Source of the DNA: Mesobacillus jeotgali
Lineage (GTDB): Bacteria; Bacillota; Bacilli; Bacillales; Cytobacillaceae
DNA length: 64,000 nt
Direction: 5' to 3'
NCBI RefSeq assembly: GCF_031759225.1
Contig: NZ_CP134494.1
Coordinates: 4,090,501 to 4,154,500 of the forward strand
The first letter of the stretch is position 1, and each line of letters opens with the position of its first letter. The position numbers and the translations under genes were made by a program. Under the pieces are notes generated by a model that did not search any database, was not told the DNA's origin, and was given only the letters and a program-made list of their open reading frames with translations. Shown piece by piece: positions 1,913-61,237 of the stretch.

Positions 1913-1968
1913 AAGTGAAATGCATAAATTTAATCTAATTAGGAGTTTATTTTTGCAGCAGAGGACTT

Positions 1969-2089
1969 TTATTGGCGAAAAAACATTTTTATTGGCGATT
2001 TACTAATTTTATTGGCGATAATTTGATTTTATTGGCGATAAATAGATGTTTATTGGCGAAAATCAATTTTTATTGGCGACTTGGAAATT
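1969..2089. repeat. Phased short-repeat array, core TTATTGGCGA, 6 copies
   Basis: Six copies of TTATTGGCGA start at 1969, 1989, 2009, 2029, 2050 and 2070, so the period is 20, 20, 20, 21, 20. The cores are identical; the 10-11 bases between them are AT-rich and all different. The array fills most of the gap between the convergent ends of the HAD gene and yvoF. It has no start codon and RBS, and no CRISPR-length repeat. Three similar arrays with other cores occur elsewhere in the window. Function unknown. Confidence 0.9.
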
Positions 2090-16577: not shown

Positions 16578-16698
16578 CTGGAAAAATTATTCTCTTACTC
16601 GACATGCTTAATTGCGCGGAAAATCATCGTAATTGCACAAAGATAGGTGATAATTGCATGCTTACCGGCCATAATTGCACGGAAATCATGAATAATTG
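16578..16698. repeat. Phased short-repeat array, core AATTGCAC, with 16-bp leader
   Basis: AATTGC (four of five copies; the fifth is truncated to AATTG) begins at 16610, 16631, 16652, 16673 and 16694: exactly 21 bp each time. The cores are flanked by different 12-13 base fillers. A leader CTGGAAAAATTATTCT starts at 16578, exactly 32 bases before the first core. An array at 45690-45805 has the same leader, distance, core and period. It lies 3' of uvrA. No protein is proposed. Confidence 0.9.
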
Positions 16699-16752
16699 AA
16701 CCGACATCCTAATTTTGGAAAAAAAACAAATTCTTCCCAATACAGCAAAAAA

Positions 16753-16784: not shown

Positions 16785-19664
16785 TTAAGCATTGCTTGTG
16801 CTTTTTTCTTTTTCCTCAATCTGTTCTTTCATCCGCAGCCTATCGCGTTCCAGTACCGGTTTCAGGTATTTGCCGGTATAGGATTCTTCCACTTCGGCAA
16901 TCTTTTCTGGTGTTCCGGTGGCGACGATTGTGCCGCCGCGGTCACCGCCTTCAGGTCCGAGGTCGACGATATAGTCCGCAGCTTTGATGACATCGAGATT
17001 GTGCTCAATCACCAGCACGGTGTCGCCATTTTCAACGAGTCGCTGGAGGACGATAAGCAGGCGCGAAATGTCATCGACATGTAAGCCAGTCGTCGGTTCA
17101 TCCAGGATATACAGCGAACGGCCGGTGGAACGTCGGTGAAGCTCGGATGCCAGCTTGACCCGCTGCGCTTCCCCGCCGGAAAGGGTCGTCGCCGGCTGGC
17201 CGAGAGTGATATAGCCAAGGCCGACATCATAAATCGTCTGCAGCTTGCGGGCGATCTTCGGAATGTTCGCGAAGAATTCCACCGCTGCTTCAACGGTCAT
17301 ATCAAGGATATCGGAAATATTCTTCCCTTTATATTTCACTTCCAATGTCTCGCGGTTGTATCGTTTGCCGTGACAGACTTCGCATGGCACGTACACATCA
17401 GGCAGGAAGTGCATTTCGATCTTGATGATACCGTCGCCTCGGCAGGCTTCACAGCGTCCACCTTTAACGTTGAAGCTGAAGCGGCCTTTCTTATAGCCGC
17501 GGACCTTCGCTTCATTCGTCGAAGCAAAGACATCACGGATATCATCGAACACTCCCGTGTAGGTTGCAGGGTTGGATCTTGGCGTACGTCCGATTGGCGA
17601 CTGGTCAATATCGATGACCTTATCGAGGTGCTCGACACCTTTGATCTCCCTGAACTCGCCTGGCTTGCTTTTTGCACGATGAAGCTGCATCGCCAGTGAT
17701 TTGTGCAGGATTTCATTGATCAGCGTACTTTTACCAGAACCGGAAACACCTGTTACAGCCATGAAGGTTCCAAGCGGGAACTTCACATTGACATTTTTAA
17801 GGTTGTTTTCCTTTGCACCCTTGATTTCGATAAAACGGCCATCCGGCTTTCGGCGCTCAATCGGCAGCGGGATGAACTTTTTACCAGAAAGGTACTTACC
17901 TGTCAGTGAATTCGGATCATCCATGACTTCTGCAGGCGTTCCCTGCGATATGATTTCACCGCCATGTACACCCGCTCCAGGACCGATATCGATCAGATGG
18001 TCCGCTGCAAGCATCGTGTCTTCATCATGCTCGACGACAATCAGCGTATTGCCGATATCGCGCATGTTTTTCAGCGTATCGATCAGTCTGTCATTGTCGC
18101 GCTGATGCAAACCGATGGAAGGCTCATCGAGAATATACAGGACACCCGTGAGTCGAGAGCCAATCTGGGTTGCAAGCCTGATACGCTGTGCTTCTCCGCC
18201 GGAAAGCGTCCCAGCCGACCTGCTCATCGTCAGATAATCCAAACCGACATTGATCAAGAAGCCAAGACGTTCCGTAATCTCGCGGAAAATCATATTAGCA
18301 ATCTTCATTTCTTTTTCCGAAAGCTCAAGACTTTGGAAAAATTGGTGCGCTTCCTCGACCGATAGCGCCGTCACTTCACCGATATGGCGGCCATCCACAA
18401 GAACAGCCAGCGTTTCACGCTTGAGCCTGTAACCTTTACAGGTTGGGCAGGCATGTTCGCCCATATATTTTTCCATCTGCTCACGGATATAATCAGAGCC
18501 TGTTTCCTTATAGCGGCGCTCGATATTTTTCAAGACGCCCTCAAAAACAATATAGTTCTCACGGACCTGGCCCCAGTCATTTTCATAACGGAAATAAATC
18601 CGGTCTTTTTCTGAACCGTAAAGAATCTTGTCCAGCTCATGATCTGGCAGGTCTTTCACCGGTACGTTCATATCGATTCCATAATGATTGCAGACTGCTT
18701 CAAGCAGCTGTGGGTAATACTGTGAGCTTGTTGGTTCCCATGGAGCAATCGCATGCTGCTTCAATGAAAGCTCCTTGTTTGGGACGACCAAATCCACGTC
18801 AACCTCCAGCTTCGCACCGAGCCCGTCACATTCAGGGCAGGCACCAAAAGGGCTGTTGAATGAGAACATGCGGGGCTCTAGCTCGCCAATCGAGAATCCG
18901 CAGATCGGGCAGGCGTGGTTCTCGCTGAACATCAATTCTTCCTCGCCGATCACGTCAATCAGGACATTACCGTCGCCAAGCTTCAGTGCAGCTTCCAAAG
19001 AATCCGCAAGGCGGGCAGCAATTCCCTCCTTGACGACGATCCGGTCGATGACGACTTCAATTGAATGCTTCTTGTTTTTCTCGAGCTCGATTTCGTCTCC
19101 AAGGTCATGCATCTCACCGTCAATACGTACACGGACATAGCCTTGCTTTTTCACATCTTCAAGGACTTTGACATGAGTACCCTTCCTGCCGGAAACAAGC
19201 GGAGCAAGGATCTGCAGCTTTGTCCTTTCGGGATATTCGAGCACGCGGTCAACCATCTGCTCGATTGTTTGTGATGAGATTTCGATATTGTGAACCGGAC
19301 AGGTTGGACGGCCAACCCTGGCGAAAAGCAGTCGTAAATAATCGTAAATCTCGGTCACCGTTCCTACTGTTGAACGGGGATTACGGCTCGTCGTTTTTTG
19401 GTCGATGGAAATCGCCGGAGACAATCCTTCGATCGAGTCAACATCCGGCTTGTCCATTTGACCGAGGAACTGGCGCGCATAGGCAGACAAAGATTCTACA
19501 TAACGGCGCTGTCCCTCAGCATAAATGGTGTCGAATGCAAGCGAGGACTTTCCTGAACCAGAAAGCCCTGTCAGAACAACAAGCTTGTCTCTCGGAATGG
19601 TGACATCTATATTTTTTAAATTATGGGCCCTGGCGCCTTTGACAATCAGTTTATCCATAGCCAT
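16785..19664 (-). CDS. uvrA: UvrA, excinuclease ABC subunit A
   Basis: A 959-residue ABC-type ATPase that finds DNA damage together with UvrB in nucleotide excision repair. Two ATPase modules are visible: first Walker [20 protein letters not shown] near residue 31 and second [17 protein letters not shown] near 640. There are two LSGGEAQR signatures and zinc-binding CxxC pairs ([39 protein letters not shown]). Length is normal. It starts eight bases after uvrB with RBS GGAAGG and so is co-transcribed under the uvrB SOS box. Confidence 0.98.
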
Positions 19665-34703: not shown

Positions 34704-36257
34704 TTGTATAAAAATTATAACACAAACCAATTGACCCTTCCAATGGACATTCAAGTTTTGATTCCTCAACAGCACCTTGTTCGATTGATTGATTTTGCCG
34801 TCGACCAGATGAACCCCAATATCTTTCTCTCTCTTTATCCTGGTGGAGGACGGCCGCCTTACCATCCTCAAATGATGTTAAAAGTCATTCTTTATGCATA
34901 TGCCAACCGTATTTATTCCTCTCGACAAATCGCGAAACAGCTAACAGAGAATATTATGTTCATGTGGCTCTCCGGCGAACAGAAGCCTGATTTTCGTACC
35001 ATCAACCGTTTCCGTTCCGAACGCATGAAAGATGTCATCTATGAGACGTTCTTTTCCATAGTCGACCTCCTTCGGGAGGAAGGACTTGTGAAGCTAGAAG
35101 ACTATTTCCTGGATGGGACCAAATTGGAGGCAAACGCCAACAAGTATACTTTTGTTTGGAAGAAGTCCACTGAAAAATACGATAAAAAGTTGGACGAGAA
35201 ATTCCGCCAGATTGTCTTTGGGATTGAACAAATCACCAAAGAAGATGAAGAAGCAGAAAGGGAACAAGATTTTCAGGAAAAGCTCGAAGAGACACCCATC
35301 TCTTCTGCAAAAATTGAAGAAACCATTAAAAAGCTGGAAGAGAGACTGGAACAGGATCCAAAAAACAAACCTTTAAAGAAGGCAAAGCGCCAACTGGAAA
35401 AAGACCTTCTACCTCGAAAGCAGAAGTATGAACTTCAGAAACAGACTTTTGGAGAGAGAAACAGCTTTTCTAAGACGGATACCGATGCCACTTTTATGCG
35501 AATGAAAGAGGACCACATGATGAACGGGCAGTTAAAGCCTGGATATAATGTTCAGATTGGAACAGAAAATCAGTTCATCACCAACTTCAGCCTCCATCAA
35601 CGGGCTGGAGATCCTGGATGCATGATTCCCCATCTTGAACTTTTGGAAAAACATAACCGCCCGAAGCCAAAGGCCGTTATTGCCGACTCTGGTTATGGAA
35701 GCGAAGAGAACTATGCACATTGTGAAGAACAGGAAATAGAAGCGTACATTAAATACAATACTTTTGACAAGGAACAGACAAAGGCATGGAAGGAACAAAT
35801 TGGCCGAGTTGAAAATATGGAGTATGACGAAGAGCTAGATGAATGGATTTGTGCAAACGGAAAACGCCTGGTTTTCCAGTATGAGAGTCAAAGAAAGTCC
35901 GACAACGGTTACGATTCCGTGAAGCGCACGTACCGCTGTACCGATTGTATGAACTGTCCATTCCAAACAACCTGTGCCAAAGACAAAGATACAAAGACCG
36001 TACAGGTCTCAGTGAAAAACCAACAACAACGAAAAGAAGTTCGGGAACGATTGGCTGCGGAAGAAGGAAGCCAAAGATACAGGCAGAGAAAAATAGATGT
36101 CGAGCCAGTATTTGGGCAGATTAAACACAATCGAGGGTTTAAAAGATTTGGGTTAAGAGGCCTCTCCAAAAATACCACGGATTGGGGTCTTATTTGCGCT
36201 GCACACAATCTTTTGAAGTGGGCAGCCAACAAGGAAAGCGAACAAAAATTAGGGTAA
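34704..36257 (+). CDS. IS1182-family DDE transposase
   Basis: A 517-residue transposase, full length for the family. The N-terminal DUF772-type DNA-binding part includes GGGRPPYHPQMMLKVILYAYANRIYSSRQIAKQL. The DDE residues fit: D in DYFLDGTKLEANANKYTF (near 137), D in KAVIADSGYGSEENY (near 330) and E in VEPVFGQIKHNRGFKRFGLRG (near 475). A cysteine cluster (CTDCMNCPFQTTC) lies before the last block. Start is TTG after AAAAGGAGAG. No frameshift is seen, so it may be active. Confidence 0.95.
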   Translation: MYKNYNTNQLTLPMDIQVLIPQQHLVRLIDFAVDQMNPNIFLSLYPGGGRPPYHPQMMLKVILYAYANRIYSSRQIAKQLTENIMFMWLSGEQKPDFRTINRFRSERMKDVIYETFFSIVDLLREEGLVKLEDYFLDGTKLEANANKYTFVWKKSTEKYDKKLDEKFRQIVFGIEQITKEDEEAEREQDFQEKLEETPISSAKIEETIKKLEERLEQDPKNKPLKKAKRQLEKDLLPRKQKYELQKQTFGERNSFSKTDTDATFMRMKEDHMMNGQLKPGYNVQIGTENQFITNFSLHQRAGDPGCMIPHLELLEKHNRPKPKAVIADSGYGSEENYAHCEEQEIEAYIKYNTFDKEQTKAWKEQIGRVENMEYDEELDEWICANGKRLVFQYESQRKSDNGYDSVKRTYRCTDCMNCPFQTTCAKDKDTKTVQVSVKNQQQRKEVRERLAAEEGSQRYRQRKIDVEPVFGQIKHNRGFKRFGLRGLSKNTTDWGLICAAHNLLKWAANKESEQKLG

Positions 36258-36510
36258 CTAAGGGGAGGAATATCCCTCTTTCCCTTATAAATCCTCAAAT
36301 CCAAACCCATAAATTGGATAAAAAGTAAAAGAGGCGACTCTCAGGTCGAATTTATTCAACCTTTTGAGTCAGCCTCTTTTTTCCGGTTATTCACTCAAAA
36401 CATATGGATTTCGTCTTATTTTTACCAGATAACCGGAATACCTCCGCTTATTACAGCGTCGTAAGTACCCTCCACATACAATAGCCGGAAATCATCCGCT
36501 TATGGATTAT

Positions 36511-36636
36511 TAATCTCTCAAAGAATCACATTATTCTCTCGAACAAAACGGATAATCTCTCAATAAAACGCCTTATTCTCTCATAAAGGAATCATAATCT
36601 CTCATTAAAGCATAATAATCTCTCATTTATCCATAG
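36511..36636. repeat. Phased short-repeat array, core TAATCTCTC, 6 copies, exact 21-bp period
   Basis: TAATCTCTC or TATTCTCTC begins at 36511, 36532, 36553, 36574, 36595 and 36616, exactly 21 bp apart. The other 12 bases of each unit differ. The array lies between the IS end and the iadA terminator. The two strands contain stops, so it is not a tandem peptide repeat gene. Upstream (36433-36502), a CCGGAA...TCCGCTTA motif occurs twice. Function unknown. Confidence 0.9.
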
Positions 36637-36642
36637 AATGTA

Positions 36643-36682
36643 AAAACTCCCGACCTATGAAGGATCGGCCTGGAGTTTAACA
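36643..36682 (-). terminator. iadA terminator
   Basis: On the minus strand AACTCC...CCGATCCT pairs with AGGTCGG...GAGTT (with a bulge), followed by TTTTTAC, just past the iadA stop codon. Confidence 0.75.
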
Positions 36683-36685
36683 AGT

Positions 36686-37855
36686 CTATTCAAATGTCCC
36701 TTTCACCAACGGAACTCTATTCTCCACCATGACCTGCCCCATCGCAATGACAGTGTCAACCTCAAGATTCTCATCCAGCAGCACCAGGTCTGCGTCACGA
36801 CCTGTTTCAATACGCCCTTTTTGCGATAGCTTTAGAACTGTTGCCGGATTGGCAGTAATGACTCGGATGGCCACTTCGAGCGGAATCCCCTCGGATAAAA
36901 TAGCTTCCTTGACCGCTTCGTACAAAGAGGAAACCTGTCCAGTCTGCAGACCGATCAATTCACCATTTTCATCAAAATCAGGCAGGCTCGCCTGACCGTC
37001 TGAGGTGAAGGTGATCTGCCCGATCTCTACTCCGGCATCAAGCATGCGTTTCAACGCAACGCTGCACTTCACTTCGCCCTCCTCCAGGAACTTCGGGATC
37101 GAACTGGTTGTAAAATCAACCCAGCCGCCTTTTTTCGCATAATCGATTCCTGCCTCGAACAGATGCGGGTTACGATTGATATGGGTCGGGTAAAACTGCC
37201 TGATTGGGATATCCGTAGTCTCCACTACTTCCTCTATCAGCTTCAAATGGTCAAAGCTGTCACCGACATGGACATTGACGATGCCAGCTTTTCCGCCCAG
37301 CATCCCGCCAATCCGCGCTGCCGAAGCGATCTTTGCCAATTCTTCGGCAGTCGGCTGCGAGGAGCGGTGATCGGCAATCGCAATCTCCCCTGCCCCGATG
37401 ATTTTATCGATTAAAATGATATCGTCCTCGATTTTCCCGGTCAGCGTTTTGACCGGGACCTGATAGGAGCCTGTCTGTACATAGGTGGTAATCCCTTCTT
37501 CCTCAAGCGCGCGCGCCTTGGCGATCAAGCTTGACATCGTCCGCGTCGTACCGTCGGTGCCGAGCACACCGACAAGCGTCGTAATCCCGGCAGTCGTTGC
37601 CTGTGTCAGCTGGATCTCCGGCGTCCTCGTTCGGAACCCGCCTTCCCCGCCTCCTCCAATCAGATGGACATGGGAATCGATGAAGCCAGGTACAACCTTT
37701 TTCCCTGTCGCATCTATAACCTGTATTTTCACAAACCCATCAGGAACACTAATTTCATCCTGTATGAATCCAATTTTACGATCAACAAGCAATATATCTT
37801 TTTTTCCAAGGTAATCTGGTGCGTAAACGTCTCCATTTTTGATTAACGTCAGCAT
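36686..37855 (-). CDS. iadA: IadA, isoaspartyl (beta-aspartyl) dipeptidase
   Basis: A 389-residue metallo-amidohydrolase that removes N-terminal isoaspartyl residues from dipeptides, recycling damaged protein. Metal-site motifs are present: PGFIDSHVHLIGGGGEGGF (about 56-74), GVLGTDGTTR, the histidines in VNVHVGDSFDHL and FYPTHINRNPHLF, and the catalytic aspartate in TFTSDGQASLPDFDENG. RBS GGAGGGG precedes the ATG. It is a single-gene unit beside the IS. Confidence 0.92.
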   Translation of the reverse strand: MLTLIKNGDVYAPDYLGKKDILLVDRKIGFIQDEISVPDGFVKIQVIDATGKKVVPGFIDSHVHLIGGGGEGGFRTRTPEIQLTQATTAGITTLVGVLGTDGTTRTMSSLIAKARALEEEGITTYVQTGSYQVPVKTLTGKIEDDIILIDKIIGAGEIAIADHRSSQPTAEELAKIASAARIGGMLGGKAGIVNVHVGDSFDHLKLIEEVVETTDIPIRQFYPTHINRNPHLFEAGIDYAKKGGWVDFTTSSIPKFLEEGEVKCSVALKRMLDAGVEIGQITFTSDGQASLPDFDENGELIGLQTGQVSSLYEAVKEAILSEGIPLEVAIRVITANPATVLKLSQKGRIETGRDADLVLLDENLEVDTVIAMGQVMVENRVPLVKGTFE

Positions 37856-38592: not shown

Positions 38593-38877
38593 GTTGAAGC
38601 GTTGAAGAGAGTCTATTAAGCCGGTCTCCCTGTTAATAGAGAATCAGTGGTTGGTGGAAACTGATACAAAGGCCTGGTGAATTTCGTTCTTGGAGCTTTT
38701 CCTTTTAAAAATAGCTGTTTTTCGTGTTGACCGAAAATAGCTCTAAAAAAAGGAACGGTTTTGGCCGTTATCCAGTAACTTGAGCGGGAAGCAGCATGCT
38801 TCCAAATAGGGTGGTACCGCGTGTTCAGCCACGTCCCTATCCAGATTGATGGATAGAGGCGTGGCTTTTTATTTTGC
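38593..38877 (+). promoter_or_regulatory. T-box riboswitch upstream of the sodium symporter
   Basis: The diagnostic T-box AGGGTGGTACCGCG is at 38808-38821, followed by a terminator stem (CCACG...CGTGG, about 38829-38867) and TTTTTATTTT. Upstream is a Stem I region beginning GAAGAGAGT, with AGAGAATCAG...CTGAT and GTGAATTTCGTTCTTGGAGC. By alignment with known leaders the specifier would be TTC (phenylalanine), with moderate certainty. Uncharged tRNA would open the terminator and turn on the transporter gene 53 bases downstream. Confidence 0.92.
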
Positions 38878-45689: not shown

Positions 45690-45805
45690 CTGGAAAAATT
45701 ATTCTGTAGGTTCAACTCAATAATTGCACGTTCAGCTTTAATAATTGCACTGACATTAGCCATAATTGCACACTCAGACACATTAATTGCACGTTCATCC
45801 AAATA
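45690..45805. repeat. Phased short-repeat array, core AATTGCAC, with the same 16-bp leader
   Basis: AATTGCAC starts at 45722, 45743, 45764 and 45785, exactly 21 bp apart. The leader CTGGAAAAATTATTCT at 45690-45705 is identical to the one at 16578 and lies at the same 32-base distance from the first core. The array lies between ctpB and minJ, 3' of ctpB. The period is a multiple of three, so open frames with peptide repeats such as IIARS appear on both strands; neither has an RBS. The rest of the gap 45450-45689 shows nothing I can assign. Confidence 0.9.
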
Positions 45806-45859: not shown

Positions 45860-47314
45860 TTATTGATTCGCCAGCAGCCTTAATGCAGTCTGCAGCTGAA
45901 GGTCGTTTTCTTCTTGTTTCATCGCTTTCCTGGCCGCGTCTTCGAGTGCGGAGGCTGTTTTTGCATCAATGACACCTGTTACAGTCATGTCATTTTTGCG
46001 CTGGAATGCTTTGACGGCGATTTCGGTCATGCCGCTGAAGTATCCATCCGTACGGCCCGGCTCAAACCCGAGCCCAGCAAGGATTTCCTGGGCATTTTTG
46101 ACCTGCTCGTTATTCATGTCCAGCTTAAGCGGTTTTTCAGCCTGGATAGGATGGGTATCATAAAGCGACGGCTGATTGACCTCGACGGTTGGCTCGATGC
46201 CTTTTTTATGGATCCAGTTGCCGTCTGGCGTCAGCCATTTGAACAGCGTCAGCTTGATATTGCTGCCATCCCCCATCGGCACAGCCTGCTGGACTGTACC
46301 CTTGCCGAAGGTCTTTTCGCCAATGACTGGATAGCCGCCTGCTTCCTTCAATGCCCCGGCCAAAATTTCCGATGCGGATGCACTGCCGTCATCTGTCAGC
46401 ACAGCAATAGGATACTGCTTCGCTTTTTCCAGATTGGAGAAGTAGCGAGTCTTATCGCCGCTGCGTTCTTCGATTTGATAGAGCGGCTTCTCCTTGGAAA
46501 TCAACTCTCGTAAAATTTCTTCAACACTGGAAAGCAGCCCGCCAGGATTGCCGCGTACATCGATCAGCAGCGCATCCAGCCCTTCTTTTTCAAAAGCCTT
46601 AAGCTCCTTATTGAACTCTTTGGAGGTATCTTCTGAGAACGAGGTAATCTCCATGTAACCAATCTTCTCTCCGTTCACCTTTTTCATGTCAGCATGGACG
46701 GTAATCTGCGGAATCTCATCGCGAATCACTTTAACCTTCAGTGAATCCTTCAAGCCTTTACGCTCGATTTCCAGCACTACAGGTGTCCCTTTTTTGCCGC
46801 GGATTTTCAAAGTCGCCTCATATAAATCCAATCCCTCGATACTCTCGCCATCGACCGTTAAAATCTGGTCATTTGGCTTCAAACCCGCTTTCTCTGCGGG
46901 GGAATTTTTAAAAGGAGAAACAATCACGATTTTTCCATCGACCGTACTGACTTCAGCACCAATTCCTTCAAAGGACGACTCCAGCGTCTCATTGAATTGT
47001 TTGGCCGTTTCCTTGTCCATGTAGACGGAATACGGATCCTCCAGGGTTGATAGCATCCCCTGGATCGCCCCTTCAACCAGTTTTTCTTCTTCTACCTTTT
47101 CTACGTAACTGTTAAAAATCAAACTGTATGCCTGCTCGACTTTTTCGAGACTGCTTGCATCGCCTGCCTCTGCACCTGCATGATCTTTCAGGGGCACAAT
47201 CTGGCGTTCCAGCACACCTGCCTTGCTTTCGTACCATTGCATGCCGGCGTATGTACTTCCTGCACCAGTCAGCAGCGAGCCCGCCATCAAAATGGCAATC
47301 CACTTACGCTCCAT
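45860..47314 (-). CDS. ctpB: CtpB, S41-family carboxyl-terminal processing protease
   Basis: A 484-residue protease with an N-terminal signal/anchor helix (about 5-25), a PDZ domain (about 95-175; KAGLKPNDQILTVDGESIEG), the S41 core with the catalytic serine in DDGSASASEILAGAL and lysine in GEKTFGKGTVQQAVP, and a C-terminal peptidoglycan-binding domain (about 395-455). B. subtilis CtpB cleaves SpoIVFA/SpoIVFB regulators in the sigma-K checkpoint. The ATG at 47314 is seven bases after AGGAG; a TTG at 47320 abuts the RBS. A possible TATAAT lies at 47379-47384 on the minus strand. Confidence 0.9.
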   Translation of the reverse strand: MERKWIAILMAGSLLTGAGSTYAGMQWYESKAGVLERQIVPLKDHAGAEAGDASSLEKVEQAYSLIFNSYVEKVEEEKLVEGAIQGMLSTLEDPYSVYMDKETAKQFNETLESSFEGIGAEVSTVDGKIVIVSPFKNSPAEKAGLKPNDQILTVDGESIEGLDLYEATLKIRGKKGTPVVLEIERKGLKDSLKVKVIRDEIPQITVHADMKKVNGEKIGYMEITSFSEDTSKEFNKELKAFEKEGLDALLIDVRGNPGGLLSSVEEILRELISKEKPLYQIEERSGDKTRYFSNLEKAKQYPIAVLTDDGSASASEILAGALKEAGGYPVIGEKTFGKGTVQQAVPMGDGSNIKLTLFKWLTPDGNWIHKKGIEPTVEVNQPSLYDTHPIQAEKPLKLDMNNEQVKNAQEILAGLGFEPGRTDGYFSGMTEIAVKAFQRKNDMTVTGVIDAKTASALEDAARKAMKQEENDLQLQTALRLLANQ

Positions 47315-47666
47315 TGCCAAACTCCTCCCTGTTTACCGCATCTACTGCTCCTCTGCCGTAAAAATTTCTATGATTCCCATTATATGACGAACAGGGACAG
47401 GGTATGAAGGATAAATTTAGCAGCTGATTTCGAAAGAGGTATCATCCAGTGGTGATTTGTGCCCGTTTTTTAGTACGAGCCTGAAGATTCAGTTAGCACC
47501 ACAAGAATATCACACCTATCTTTAAAAACATCAAGTTTACATACTCTTCAATCATCGTAAACTTTATCTGGACACCTATCCTTGCATGGCTCCTAGCAAT
47601 GATTTTTTCAGGTGACAATCCTGCGTTATATATTGGATTTATCATGAAAGTTCTAGCTTTAAATTA
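47315..47666. other. Gap between ctpB and a small membrane-protein gene
   Basis: About 350 bases on the upstream side of ctpB. Apart from the possible ctpB -10 (minus strand TATAAT, 47379-47384) I see no gene, hairpin or repeat. Confidence 0.5.
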
Positions 47667-59352: not shown

Positions 59353-61237
59353 ATCGAGTAGGAGGGGGTGACTAACCCCCGACCTCTCACACCACCGTAC
59401 GTACCGTTCGGTATACGGCGGTTCAATTAAGTGTGACGTAGAAATTCATATCTTTGATATAGACTTTTGAGCCCTCGATGACTCCAATAAGAGTTATCGA
59501 GGGTTTTGTGTAAGATTGGACTTGAGGCAATTCTCCAAAATTTCTTTCTGGAATTTCCCCATTCGTATGCCTTTTGGTCTGGAACGCCAAGACTTTTGAG
59601 TTTTCTTACTCTTGTCTTCGGGTTCTTCCATTGTTTCCATTCAATCATACGGAGTCTTCTTCTAATCCACTCATCAAATTCTTTGAATTTACTTGGTGTA
59701 TCAGCTAATGCAAAATATCCACACCATCCCGTTAGAAATTGATTCAATTTCTCAATTCTAACTTCCATGGGGATTGGTTTAGAACGGGATGTTAACTTTC
59801 GTATTTTAGCTTTTAGCCTTTTAACACTTTCGTTGGCTATTCGAACCTTCGGTTTCTTATTAACCGTAAAGCTAAAGCCAAGGAATTTTCGTTTCCACGG
59901 GCGGTCAACCGCTGATTTCCCTCTGTTTACTTTGAGCTTTAATTTCTGCTCAATGAAGCATGTAATGGAGTTCATTACTCGTTCTCCAGCTTTCTTCGAT
60001 TTCATGTAAATATTACAATCATCGGCGTATCGGACAAACTTGTGACCTCTCCTTTCTAGTTCTTTATCAAGCTTATCCAAAAGTATATTCGAAAGAAGAG
60101 GGCTCAGGGGACCTCCTTGTGGTGTTCCTTCTTCTGCATCGTAGACTACACCATTTATCATGATTCCTGCTTGGAGATATTTTCGAATTAGCTTCAAGAC
60201 CAATCGGTCTTGGATTCTGCTTGCCAATATCCCCATCAGCTTGTCATGATTCACTTTGTCAAAGAACTTCTCCAAGTCCATGTCAATCACCCATCTGTAA
60301 CCTTCACTTATATATCCCCTTGCTTTACGTACAGCGTCATGGCCTCTTCGGCTTGGCCTAAACCCATAACTATGTTCCGAGAAGGTTGGGTCAAAAAGCG
60401 GAGTTAAAACTTGGGCGATTGCCTGTTGGATGAAACGATCTATCACGGTAGGTATTCCAAGTAACCTTACTCCACCGTTCGGTTTCGGGATTTCGACTCG
60501 ACGTACTGGGTTAGGTTGATAGGTACCTTTCCTTAAAGAATCACAAAGGGTGTCCCAGTTCTCATAGAGATGTCTTCGTAGGGATTTTACGGACATTCCA
60601 TCTATGCCGTGACTCCCTTTGTTCTTCTCCACACGTTTAAGTGCTTCTATTAAGTTTTCCCGTGATAGAATCAGATTCATTAACATGTGATATTTCCTTT
60701 CGACGTGAACGTAGAAATCTAATTATGTTATTCCTGCTCCACCCTCATGAAGTCCCCTGTGGATTCACCACTTCCTCCTTCAAGTAAGTCCTTTCGGATT
60801 GTCTGCTTCTACACAGGAATTGTATGCCTAGTTCTCGTTCTTCCTAATTGTTCAGTCCTTCCCTTACCGTCTCGAGCCGGTAAAGTACTATGACCTCTGC
60901 TGACTTCTGATTGTTCAGCTATCTATTGCTAGATAGGTTACCAAGTGTACTTGGCTTTCCAATCAGACCTCCCCGGGTAAGAGTACAGTCTTTCCCTCCA
61001 TCTATCTGCTTCATTTACTCTGTACCACCTTCGGCAGTAAGGACTTTGTTTTGTTCTGCAAACTCATCCAATGGTACCTAGCCTTATATGAAGTTCGTGT
61101 TCCTCAGACCGGAGGTTTGCCGCTCGCTTCCTTCAGATTCCGCGTCACCGCGGACACCCTTGCGTTAAGCTAACCACTACTACTGCCTTCATGGCTCGGG
61201 ACTTACACCCTATAGACTGCACCCATGCCGGGCGCAC
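59353..61237 (-). mobile_element. Group IIC intron, inserted behind a terminator
   Basis: On the minus strand the ribozyme starts GTGCGCCCGGCATGGG at 61237 and ends at about 59353. Domain V is visible as CCGTATACCGAACGGTACGTACGG (given in two overlapping parts: CCGTATACCGAACGG, GAACGGTACGTACGG), then domain VI with GGGGGTTAGTCACCCCC and CCTACTCGAT. The reverse transcriptase lies in domain IV. The insertion is eight bases beyond the hairpin terminator of the arsR gene, the target preferred by class C introns. About 1.88 kb. Confidence 0.88.
59427..60686 (-). CDS. ltrA: Group II intron reverse transcriptase/maturase
   Basis: A 419-residue protein. Reverse-transcriptase blocks run from about 30 to 270: GIDGMSVKSL, SYGFRPSRRGHDAV, the catalytic YADDCNIYMKS (near 225) and GTPQGGPLSPLLSNILLDKLD. 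A maturase (X) domain follows (LNQFLTGWCGYFALADTPSKF), and there is no HNH endonuclease domain, typical of class C. It splices the intron RNA and copies it into DNA. RBS GAAAGGAAA before the ATG. The frame is intact. Confidence 0.96.
   Translation of the reverse strand: MLMNLILSRENLIEALKRVEKNKGSHGIDGMSVKSLRRHLYENWDTLCDSLRKGTYQPNPVRRVEIPKPNGGVRLLGIPTVIDRFIQQAIAQVLTPLFDPTFSEHSYGFRPSRRGHDAVRKARGYISEGYRWVIDMDLEKFFDKVNHDKLMGILASRIQDRLVLKLIRKYLQAGIMINGVVYDAEEGTPQGGPLSPLLSNILLDKLDKELERRGHKFVRYADDCNIYMKSKKAGERVMNSITCFIEQKLKLKVNRGKSAVDRPWKRKFLGFSFTVNKKPKVRIANESVKRLKAKIRKLTSRSKPIPMEVRIEKLNQFLTGWCGYFALADTPSKFKEFDEWIRRRLRMIEWKQWKNPKTRVRKLKSLGVPDQKAYEWGNSRKKFWRIASSPILHKTLDNSYWSHRGLKSLYQRYEFLRHT

Follow-up and report, generated by a model that had tools for sequence, protein, structure and literature searches.

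Non-coding tandem repeats of constant size and variable sequence are known from many Bacillus genomes, without an explanation for either their two sizes or the freedom of their sequence. According to the available text of Subirana and Messeguer (2021; PMC8161180), the units are 20-21 or 52 nt long and carry short conserved words; 20-21 nt corresponds to two helical turns and 52 nt is left without explanation, and a polymerizing nucleoid protein or small RNAs are considered. Should the two sizes share one helical AT/GC alternation irrespective of the word, this would turn into a directly testable problem of DNA mechanics, and the question then raised is which protein wraps the array DNA and whether gene ends are insulated or relaxed by it. 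In E. coli, the accessible portions of a Topo-Seq study describe a DNA gyrase motif of about 130 bp with phased G/C variation of about 10 bp, which is read through bendability; gyrase collects downstream of transcribed units and in BIME-2 elements, and its attraction to downstream regions is given there as not hard-wired in the E. coli sequence (PMC6379681). A preprint, in the part available, links a wrap of about 48 bp to deformability (PMC12393610). The BIME-2/REP elements of enterobacteria are dispersed, extragenic, located beside gene ends and linked to gyrase (PMC6379681 and general knowledge).

The array considered here lies in a window of 64,000 nucleotides from Mesobacillus jeotgali, positions 4090501-4154500 of the 4.63-Mb chromosome; coordinates below are those of the window (Table 1). 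Among named records, the closest relatives of its iadA product come from Mesobacillus and from Bacillus without species assignment. Six TAWTCTCTC cores start at 36511, 36532, 36553, 36574, 36595, and 36616, with all five spacings exactly 21 bp, as the initial annotation had stated. Each unit consists of the 9-bp core (TAATCTCTC in four of six units, TATTCTCTC in two) and 12 bp of variable filler. The array is located between an IS1182 family transposase gene and iadA, 253 and 62 bp from them, and the stop codons inside it mark it as non-coding, in agreement with the annotation; a coding repeat is rejected on that ground. Constant and variable parts at a fixed period also characterize CRISPR arrays, which have repeats of roughly 23-50 bp and unique spacers and are found beside cas genes; the 21-bp unit differs in being too short (core 9 bp, filler 12 bp), in forming many arrays per genome, and in having filler that keeps an AT/GC phase. 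The window contains four arrays with three cores in total, starting at 1968, 16609, 36511, and 45721, each past the stop of a minus-strand gene; this bears out the annotation's count of four arrays on the 3' side of genes. Between the IS1182 gene and the array at 36511, a piece of a dispersed repeat shows sub-matches shifted by about 51 bp and recurs at many places in relatives. The IS1182 gene is inserted between a chromate transporter gene and the array, in this genome only among the iadA flanks read by eye.

Table 1. Coordinates of the arrays in the window and of the features adjoining the array behind iadA.
Feature	Position	Strand	Details
Array, six units, period 20/21	1968-2079	-	core TTTATTGGCGA on +; behind minus-strand ORF 2226-2762
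Array, five units at 21 bp	16609-16713	-	core TAATTGC; behind uvrA (16785-19664, minus)
IS1182 family transposase gene	34704-36257		
Piece of another dispersed repeat, between IS1182 gene and array	36378-36508	.	many matches in relatives
Array, six units at 21 bp	36511-36636	-	core TAWTCTCTC on +; GAGAGATTA / GAGAGAATA on -, the iadA direction
Gene-side edge of the six-unit 21-bp array	36626-36633	-	TGGATAAA on minus strand; by eye
Terminator-like hairpin of iadA, between stop codon and array	36640-36679	-	sequence and hairpin scan
iadA, beta-aspartyl peptidase; 3' end adjoins array	36686-37855	-	TIGR01975, 570 bits (cut-off 331)
Array, four units at 21 bp	45721-45804	-	core TAATTGCAC; behind S41 peptidase gene (45860-47320, minus)

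Judged by the available text of PMC8161180, the array belongs to the published 20-21-nt repeat class, and the earlier remark that it was unlike any listed repeat class does not stand. The detection rule given there asks for four or more 20-21-nt repeats, of which 60% or more are equal in length (+/-1), and here six units are separated by five spacings of 21 bp; a location outside protein-coding genes is found in the gap between iadA and the IS1182 gene, with stops inside the array; and one genome contains several equal-sized families of different sequence, built on short conserved words and represented by TTTATTGGCGA, TAATTGCAC, TAWTCTCTC, and others in 864 kb, alongside the 52-nt class. This agreement leaves no reason to define a new class. 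The families in that text are species-specific with exceptions in close relatives, whereas those described here are common to a genus (TAWTCTCTC pairs are found in 12 of 21 genus genomes); the class assignment is kept because the paper describes species-specificity without making it a detection criterion and allows exceptions. The same text, as far as available, contains nothing on helical AT/GC alternation in the units, gene-end placement, or replacement of the word at one site. What is added here is the AT/GC alternation in both sizes, the 3'-end preference of the 21-bp arrays, and the change of word behind iadA with the site kept.

Detection of such arrays is clearly separated from chance. 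A column-conservation scan recovers three arrays in the window and none in any of 20 Markov-resampled windows. The second detector, applied to 864 kb of this genome, returns 21 candidate arrays of period 19-22, two of them doubtful (one in a 2050-aa ORF, one irregularly spaced), and 14 of period 50-53; for period 19-22 each of three shuffles gives none, and six control period ranges (14-17, 23-26, 27-30, 31-34, 35-38, and 60-63) give 0 or 1 each. Chance, which the initial annotation had proposed to check by shuffling, is thereby set aside. In 60 kb of intergenic DNA from this genome, 8-mers match themselves most strongly at four sets of lags (20-21, 41-42, 52-54, and 104-107); a few more lags show a smaller excess (e.g., 59, 63, 111, and 122). 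A best-lag scan, with the threshold chosen so that 7 of 1284 shuffled gaps pass, identifies a self-similar array in 90 of 642 intergenic gaps from this genome, G016, and G018; the best lag is 20-21 or 40-42 in 50 of these gaps, 51-53 in 29, and another value in 11, and repeat units of three and four turns are rare.

The two-turn period is not always 21 bp. It is exact in the array behind iadA, but among the matches listed TTTATTGGCG arrays mix 20- and 21-bp spacings and TTTATAGCGA pairs are nearly all at 20 bp; the annotated placement of all cores on one face of the helix accordingly applies to the exact 21-bp array and fails for families at 20 bp. Genus-wide, by eye and among the matches listed, the filler type of TTTATTGGCG arrays tracks the spacing: the GGCGGTTTTCACAA or GGCGGAGTTCACAA unit type is mostly 21 bp long, and the GGCGAAAAT or GGCGATAAT unit type mostly 20 bp.

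The factor common to the families is the helical phase of AT and GC content. When A+T content is folded on the unit and decomposed into harmonics (null, positions shuffled in 1000 rounds), the second harmonic (10.5 bp) is strongest in 28 of 40 21-class arrays and its share averages 0.315 over all 40 (shuffled 0.100, sd 0.014, highest of 1000 rounds 0.157); the fifth harmonic (10.4 bp) is strongest in 8 of 21 52-class arrays, with a mean share of 0.116 (shuffled 0.039, sd 0.008, maximum 0.075). The 40 arrays are drawn from 42, the rows left out being TTGTATAC and CCTGGTTT, the latter excluded from composition tests as an array inside the 2050-aa ORF. Counted by word group, the share is 0.29 in 16 groups of the 21-class (shuffled 0.101, sd 0.021) and 0.134 in 5 groups of the 52-class (shuffled 0.038, sd 0.011); the independent words are fewer than 16, because some groups are the two strands of one word (e.g., GTGCAATT and TAATTGCA). 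Arrays from other genera, a set that omits the irregularly spaced L266 and L279 and is unfiltered for coding status, give 0.304 against 0.100 shuffled for the 21-class (14 arrays) and 0.108 against 0.039 for the 52-class (6 arrays), the latter share lying below the maximum reached in 1000 shuffles (0.137). The same folding applied to intergenic DNA free of arrays yields 0.132 (21) and 0.063 (52), and to coding DNA 0.085 and 0.042. In whole-array spectra the highest peak within 6-16 bp falls at 9.8-10.9 bp in 37 of 40 21-class and 16 of 21 52-class arrays, the former count being weaker than the harmonic test because only two harmonics of a 21-bp unit fall in that range; for the array behind iadA the peak is at 10.4 bp (p < 0.005 of 200 shuffles). 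Since AT/GC alternates every 10.2-10.5 bp in both classes, the 21- and 52-bp sizes look like two and five helical turns of one pattern.

The filler, which the initial annotation had taken as variable, is so in its letters but is not free, as its AT/GC content holds the helical phase. Comparison of A+T phase in columns of less than 75% identity with that of the conserved columns, at two cycles per unit, yields z values above zero in 22 of the 28 arrays that offer enough units and filler, their mean over the 28 being 1.12 (s.e. 0.23); for the array behind iadA z = 3.3. Decay of an old tandem duplication in the absence of selection, to which a few arrays with near-identical fillers as in young duplications would conform (24582, in this genome), would blur core and filler alike, whereas the core stays and the filler keeps its AT/GC phase; the clustering of repeat sizes at two values, and the presence of unrelated words of the same period at the same site in relatives, likewise oppose it and make this origin scarcely credible.

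The site behind iadA illustrates how word and phase are separated. Up to 420 bp behind iadA was read in 19 of 20 genus loci (L045 gave no match), and a 21-bp-type array, recognized by sequence and best lag, is found in 17 of them, 15 being flagged by the detector at three or more copies; of the two others, G011 is cut by a contig end and G008 has a 33-bp repeat. Three sets of words occupy the site: GAGAGATTA or GGGAGATTA in three loci (this genome, G003, and G004), GTGGTCGATA mixed with CCGCCGATA-like units in thirteen, and CAACGGGGAATAA and AACCGTGAAAAA in one (G002). An AT/GC peak at 9.9-10.4 bp beats shuffles in 17 of 18 loci (p <= 0.02 each; G011 left out), the exception being G008 (peak 11.5 bp, p = 0.55), and against 292 control windows without arrays, 24% of which themselves peak at 10-10.9 bp, 16 of the 18 loci rank above the 95th percentile. 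Because the species are related, the independent cases are the word sets and not the 17 loci. Immediately beyond iadA, arrays are likewise present in four Rossellomorea loci (L056, L061, L074, and L091) and, in the 52-bp form, in one Neobacillus locus (L071). A 33-bp tandem repeat with a GGAACCTGG-like word, outside both usual sizes, stands behind iadA in two genomes (L044 and L064).

Persistence extends to other orthologous sites. Among 17 arrays in 464 kb, eight have anchors in both G016 and G018, and an array is held at seven of eight sites in G016 and eight of eight in G018, with two of the G016 sites seen only by eye in alignments and one G018 site only in the reading of iadA flanks. The word differs at several such sites (TAATTGCAC versus TAATCACTAC, GAGAGATT versus GTAGTGATT); site and period persist while the word changes. 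The earlier suggestion that spacing and core appear to be under selection fits G003 and G004, which keep both at the same site, but other relatives keep site and period and often not the core.

These observations bear on whether the word is an operator, each family having its own sequence-specific polymerizing binder, with two-turn spacing that lets subunits touch, a block to read-through RNA polymerase or an anchor for the nucleoid as the outcome, and AT/GC phasing as a secondary feature. Within an array the letters of the core hardly change although those of the filler do, the same words (TTTATTGGCG, TTTATAGCGA, and TAWTCTCTC) recur in many arrays and species, and the authors of PMC8161180, in the text available, likewise propose a polymerizing protein. 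We nevertheless regard an operator array as rather unlikely, for species differ freely in the word that a given site carries and yet retain its AT/GC phase, and several word families per genome would require several binders. Across 21 genus genomes TTTATTGGCG is present in at least 20, TTTATAGCGA in at least 18, and TAWTCTCTC in 12; a genome-wide concerted change from TTTATTGGCG to TTTATAGCGA, as expected of a co-evolving binder, was dropped as an idea, since most genus genomes hold both words and the ratios differ.

Copying offers a second account of recurrent words, in which a REP/MITE-like element without host function is tolerated past gene ends as signal-free DNA and owes its fixed size to the copying process. 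Copies of the TAATTGC family have a common outer edge, CTGGAAAAATTATTCTCT; an array follows 21 of 25 matches to this edge, which is present in 19 of 29 arrays, and the opposite edge is present in 10 of 29 (one place counted twice). TTGGA-type edges are also seen by eye in other families. Common edges in the TAATTGC family hint at copying as units, and the avoidance of divergent gaps described below fits tolerance, yet the occupation of sites across species (some by eye) speaks against such an element, as do the orthologous-site comparisons, in which no empty site with element ends was found. The REP (Y1) transposase PF01797 gains no support as mobilizer: it is matched in 12 of 13 genomes searched, and its presence does not appear to track arrays, there being none in G048, the source of the array-bearing L065, and this genome has only three near-equal copies. 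A host-neutral copying element is, in our judgment, improbable.

The 21-bp arrays favor gene 3' ends, above all between convergent genes. Among 40 21-class arrays in gaps, 13 are convergent (6.2 expected by length, p = 0.007) and one is divergent (9.6 expected, p = 0.0003), so that the 3'-end enrichment the initial annotation had suggested looking for is present; the 52-class shows no gene-end bias (19 of 21 arrays in gaps counted). By the best-lag scan, convergent gaps contain an array most often (28 of 88), ahead of co-directional (50 of 407) and divergent ones (12 of 147; convergent versus divergent, p = 9e-6; convergent versus co-directional, p = 3e-5). In co-directional gaps 21-class arrays are a median 72.5 bp from the upstream stop and 264 bp from the next start, and 19 of 26 are nearer the upstream gene; genes were called by a simple codon-usage ORF caller that missed at least one gene. 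Terminator-like hairpins often lie between the stop and the array (hairpin scan; by eye).

For the 21-bp class a structured RNA is unlikely. In 36 of its arrays folding is indistinguishable on average from that of shuffled sequence (mean z -0.12 on one strand and -0.14 on the other), 2 of 36 falling below z -2 on a strand; they are direct repeats without RNA folding, and in this they differ from REPs, which are palindromic. The 52-class folds better than shuffles (mean z -1.5 and -1.8), with 9 of 18 arrays below -2 on a strand. Inverted word pairs, such as CTGTC...GACAG, are contained in 52-bp units of this chromosome (e.g., L014 and L009). An Rfam scan of the window finds no family at the array behind iadA; elsewhere in the window it finds group II intron domains (two matches, 60855-61154, minus) and a T-box leader (38593-38841, plus). 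As these are its only matches and the 21-class lacks folding, an RNA element was rejected. A transcribed and processed small RNA, one of the roles first proposed, could draw on the better folding of the 52-class and on the 52-nt repeats of B. coagulans, which are present in RNA-seq according to the available text of PMC8625621; since those repeats are of the 52-nt size, they have no bearing on the 21-bp class. Without folding in that class, with terminator-like hairpins often standing between gene and array, and with no Rfam family at the array in the window scan, we hold a small RNA to be very unlikely.

The likeliest reading of the sequence is probably one already among the roles first listed, a phased protein-binding or topology site. 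The array is a short non-coding element that directly follows the terminator of a gene, and it would act as DNA and not as structured RNA. Every second helical turn brings its word back, and roughly every turn, filler included, brings one alternation of AT-rich and GC-rich patches; it is phasing of this kind that allows DNA to be wrapped around a protein or bent along its surface. A protein that wraps or bends DNA may occupy the array and, once bound, isolate or relax the region in which transcription ends, particularly where two genes converge. Phasing, placement, and persistence of site and period through changes of word are properties of the arrays themselves, from which we infer the protein and its topological role. 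DNA gyrase is the leading candidate, with HU or a polymerizing binder also possible, because the E. coli motif of about 130 bp has phased G/C variation of about 10 bp and gyrase collects downstream of transcribed units (PMC6379681, available text); the array behind iadA has its 10.4-bp peak over 126 bp. The E. coli motif differs in that two periodic arms flank a central part of 36 bp and tandem words are absent. A protein-bound, wrappable element behind gene ends, with gyrase as first candidate, is thus put forward tentatively, at somewhat short of an even chance. More ambitiously, 20-21 and 52 nt may be the two-turn and five-turn solutions of a single AT/GC alternation of about 10.4 bp, used in exchangeable DNA-wrapping cassettes behind gene ends whose word can be replaced while site, phase, and size persist; these would be topological landing pads for gyrase or a nucleoid protein and a Firmicute counterpart of BIME-2, which we consider conceivable though decidedly less than probable.

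Several findings count against wrapping. Words are conserved far more exactly than bendability needs, a sign that copying or a sequence-specific factor is also at work; in families with a 20-bp period the cores leave a common face, given 10.5 bp per turn; and array-free intergenic DNA has a little of the signal, G008 lacks a 10-bp peak, and the 52-class lacks gene-end bias. Nor is iadA obviously strongly expressed. For gyrase, attraction to downstream regions is given as not hard-wired in the E. coli sequence (PMC6379681, available text). Intrinsic curvature was rejected as an explanation. Predicted from wedge parameters, it is raised overall in the 21-class (10.8 versus 7.0 degrees per turn in other intergenic DNA, p = 7e-9) and reaches 15.4 degrees per turn in the array behind iadA (p = 0.005), and in the 52-class it is not clearly above other intergenic DNA (p = 0.07); at the iadA site it is not reliably raised, static curvature beating shuffles (p < 0.05) at only 3 of 18 loci. 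Because so few iadA loci do so, wrapping is preferred over static bending.

A strict rule for the orientation of the word with respect to its co-directional neighbor gene was also considered and rejected; polarity is a tendency only, seen in 19 of 26 arrays (p = 0.03) or 18 of 25 without the irregular TTGTATAC array, under a definition made after the data were seen. Three of the seven exceptions are one orthologous site at which a minus-strand gene escaped the ORF caller because TGA occurs in its frame (as observed in this genome), and two are another single orthologous site. A gene of that description lies outside the window, at L126:11570-11845 (minus; about 4002070-4002345 of the chromosome), and encodes a HesB-like protein whose codon 32 is TGA, read in the context GFG-U-GGP; with C at the TGA it scores 65.2 bits against TIGR01911 (HesB-like), just below the cut-off of 66.35, and it is probably a selenoprotein of the kind that a standard ORF caller misses.
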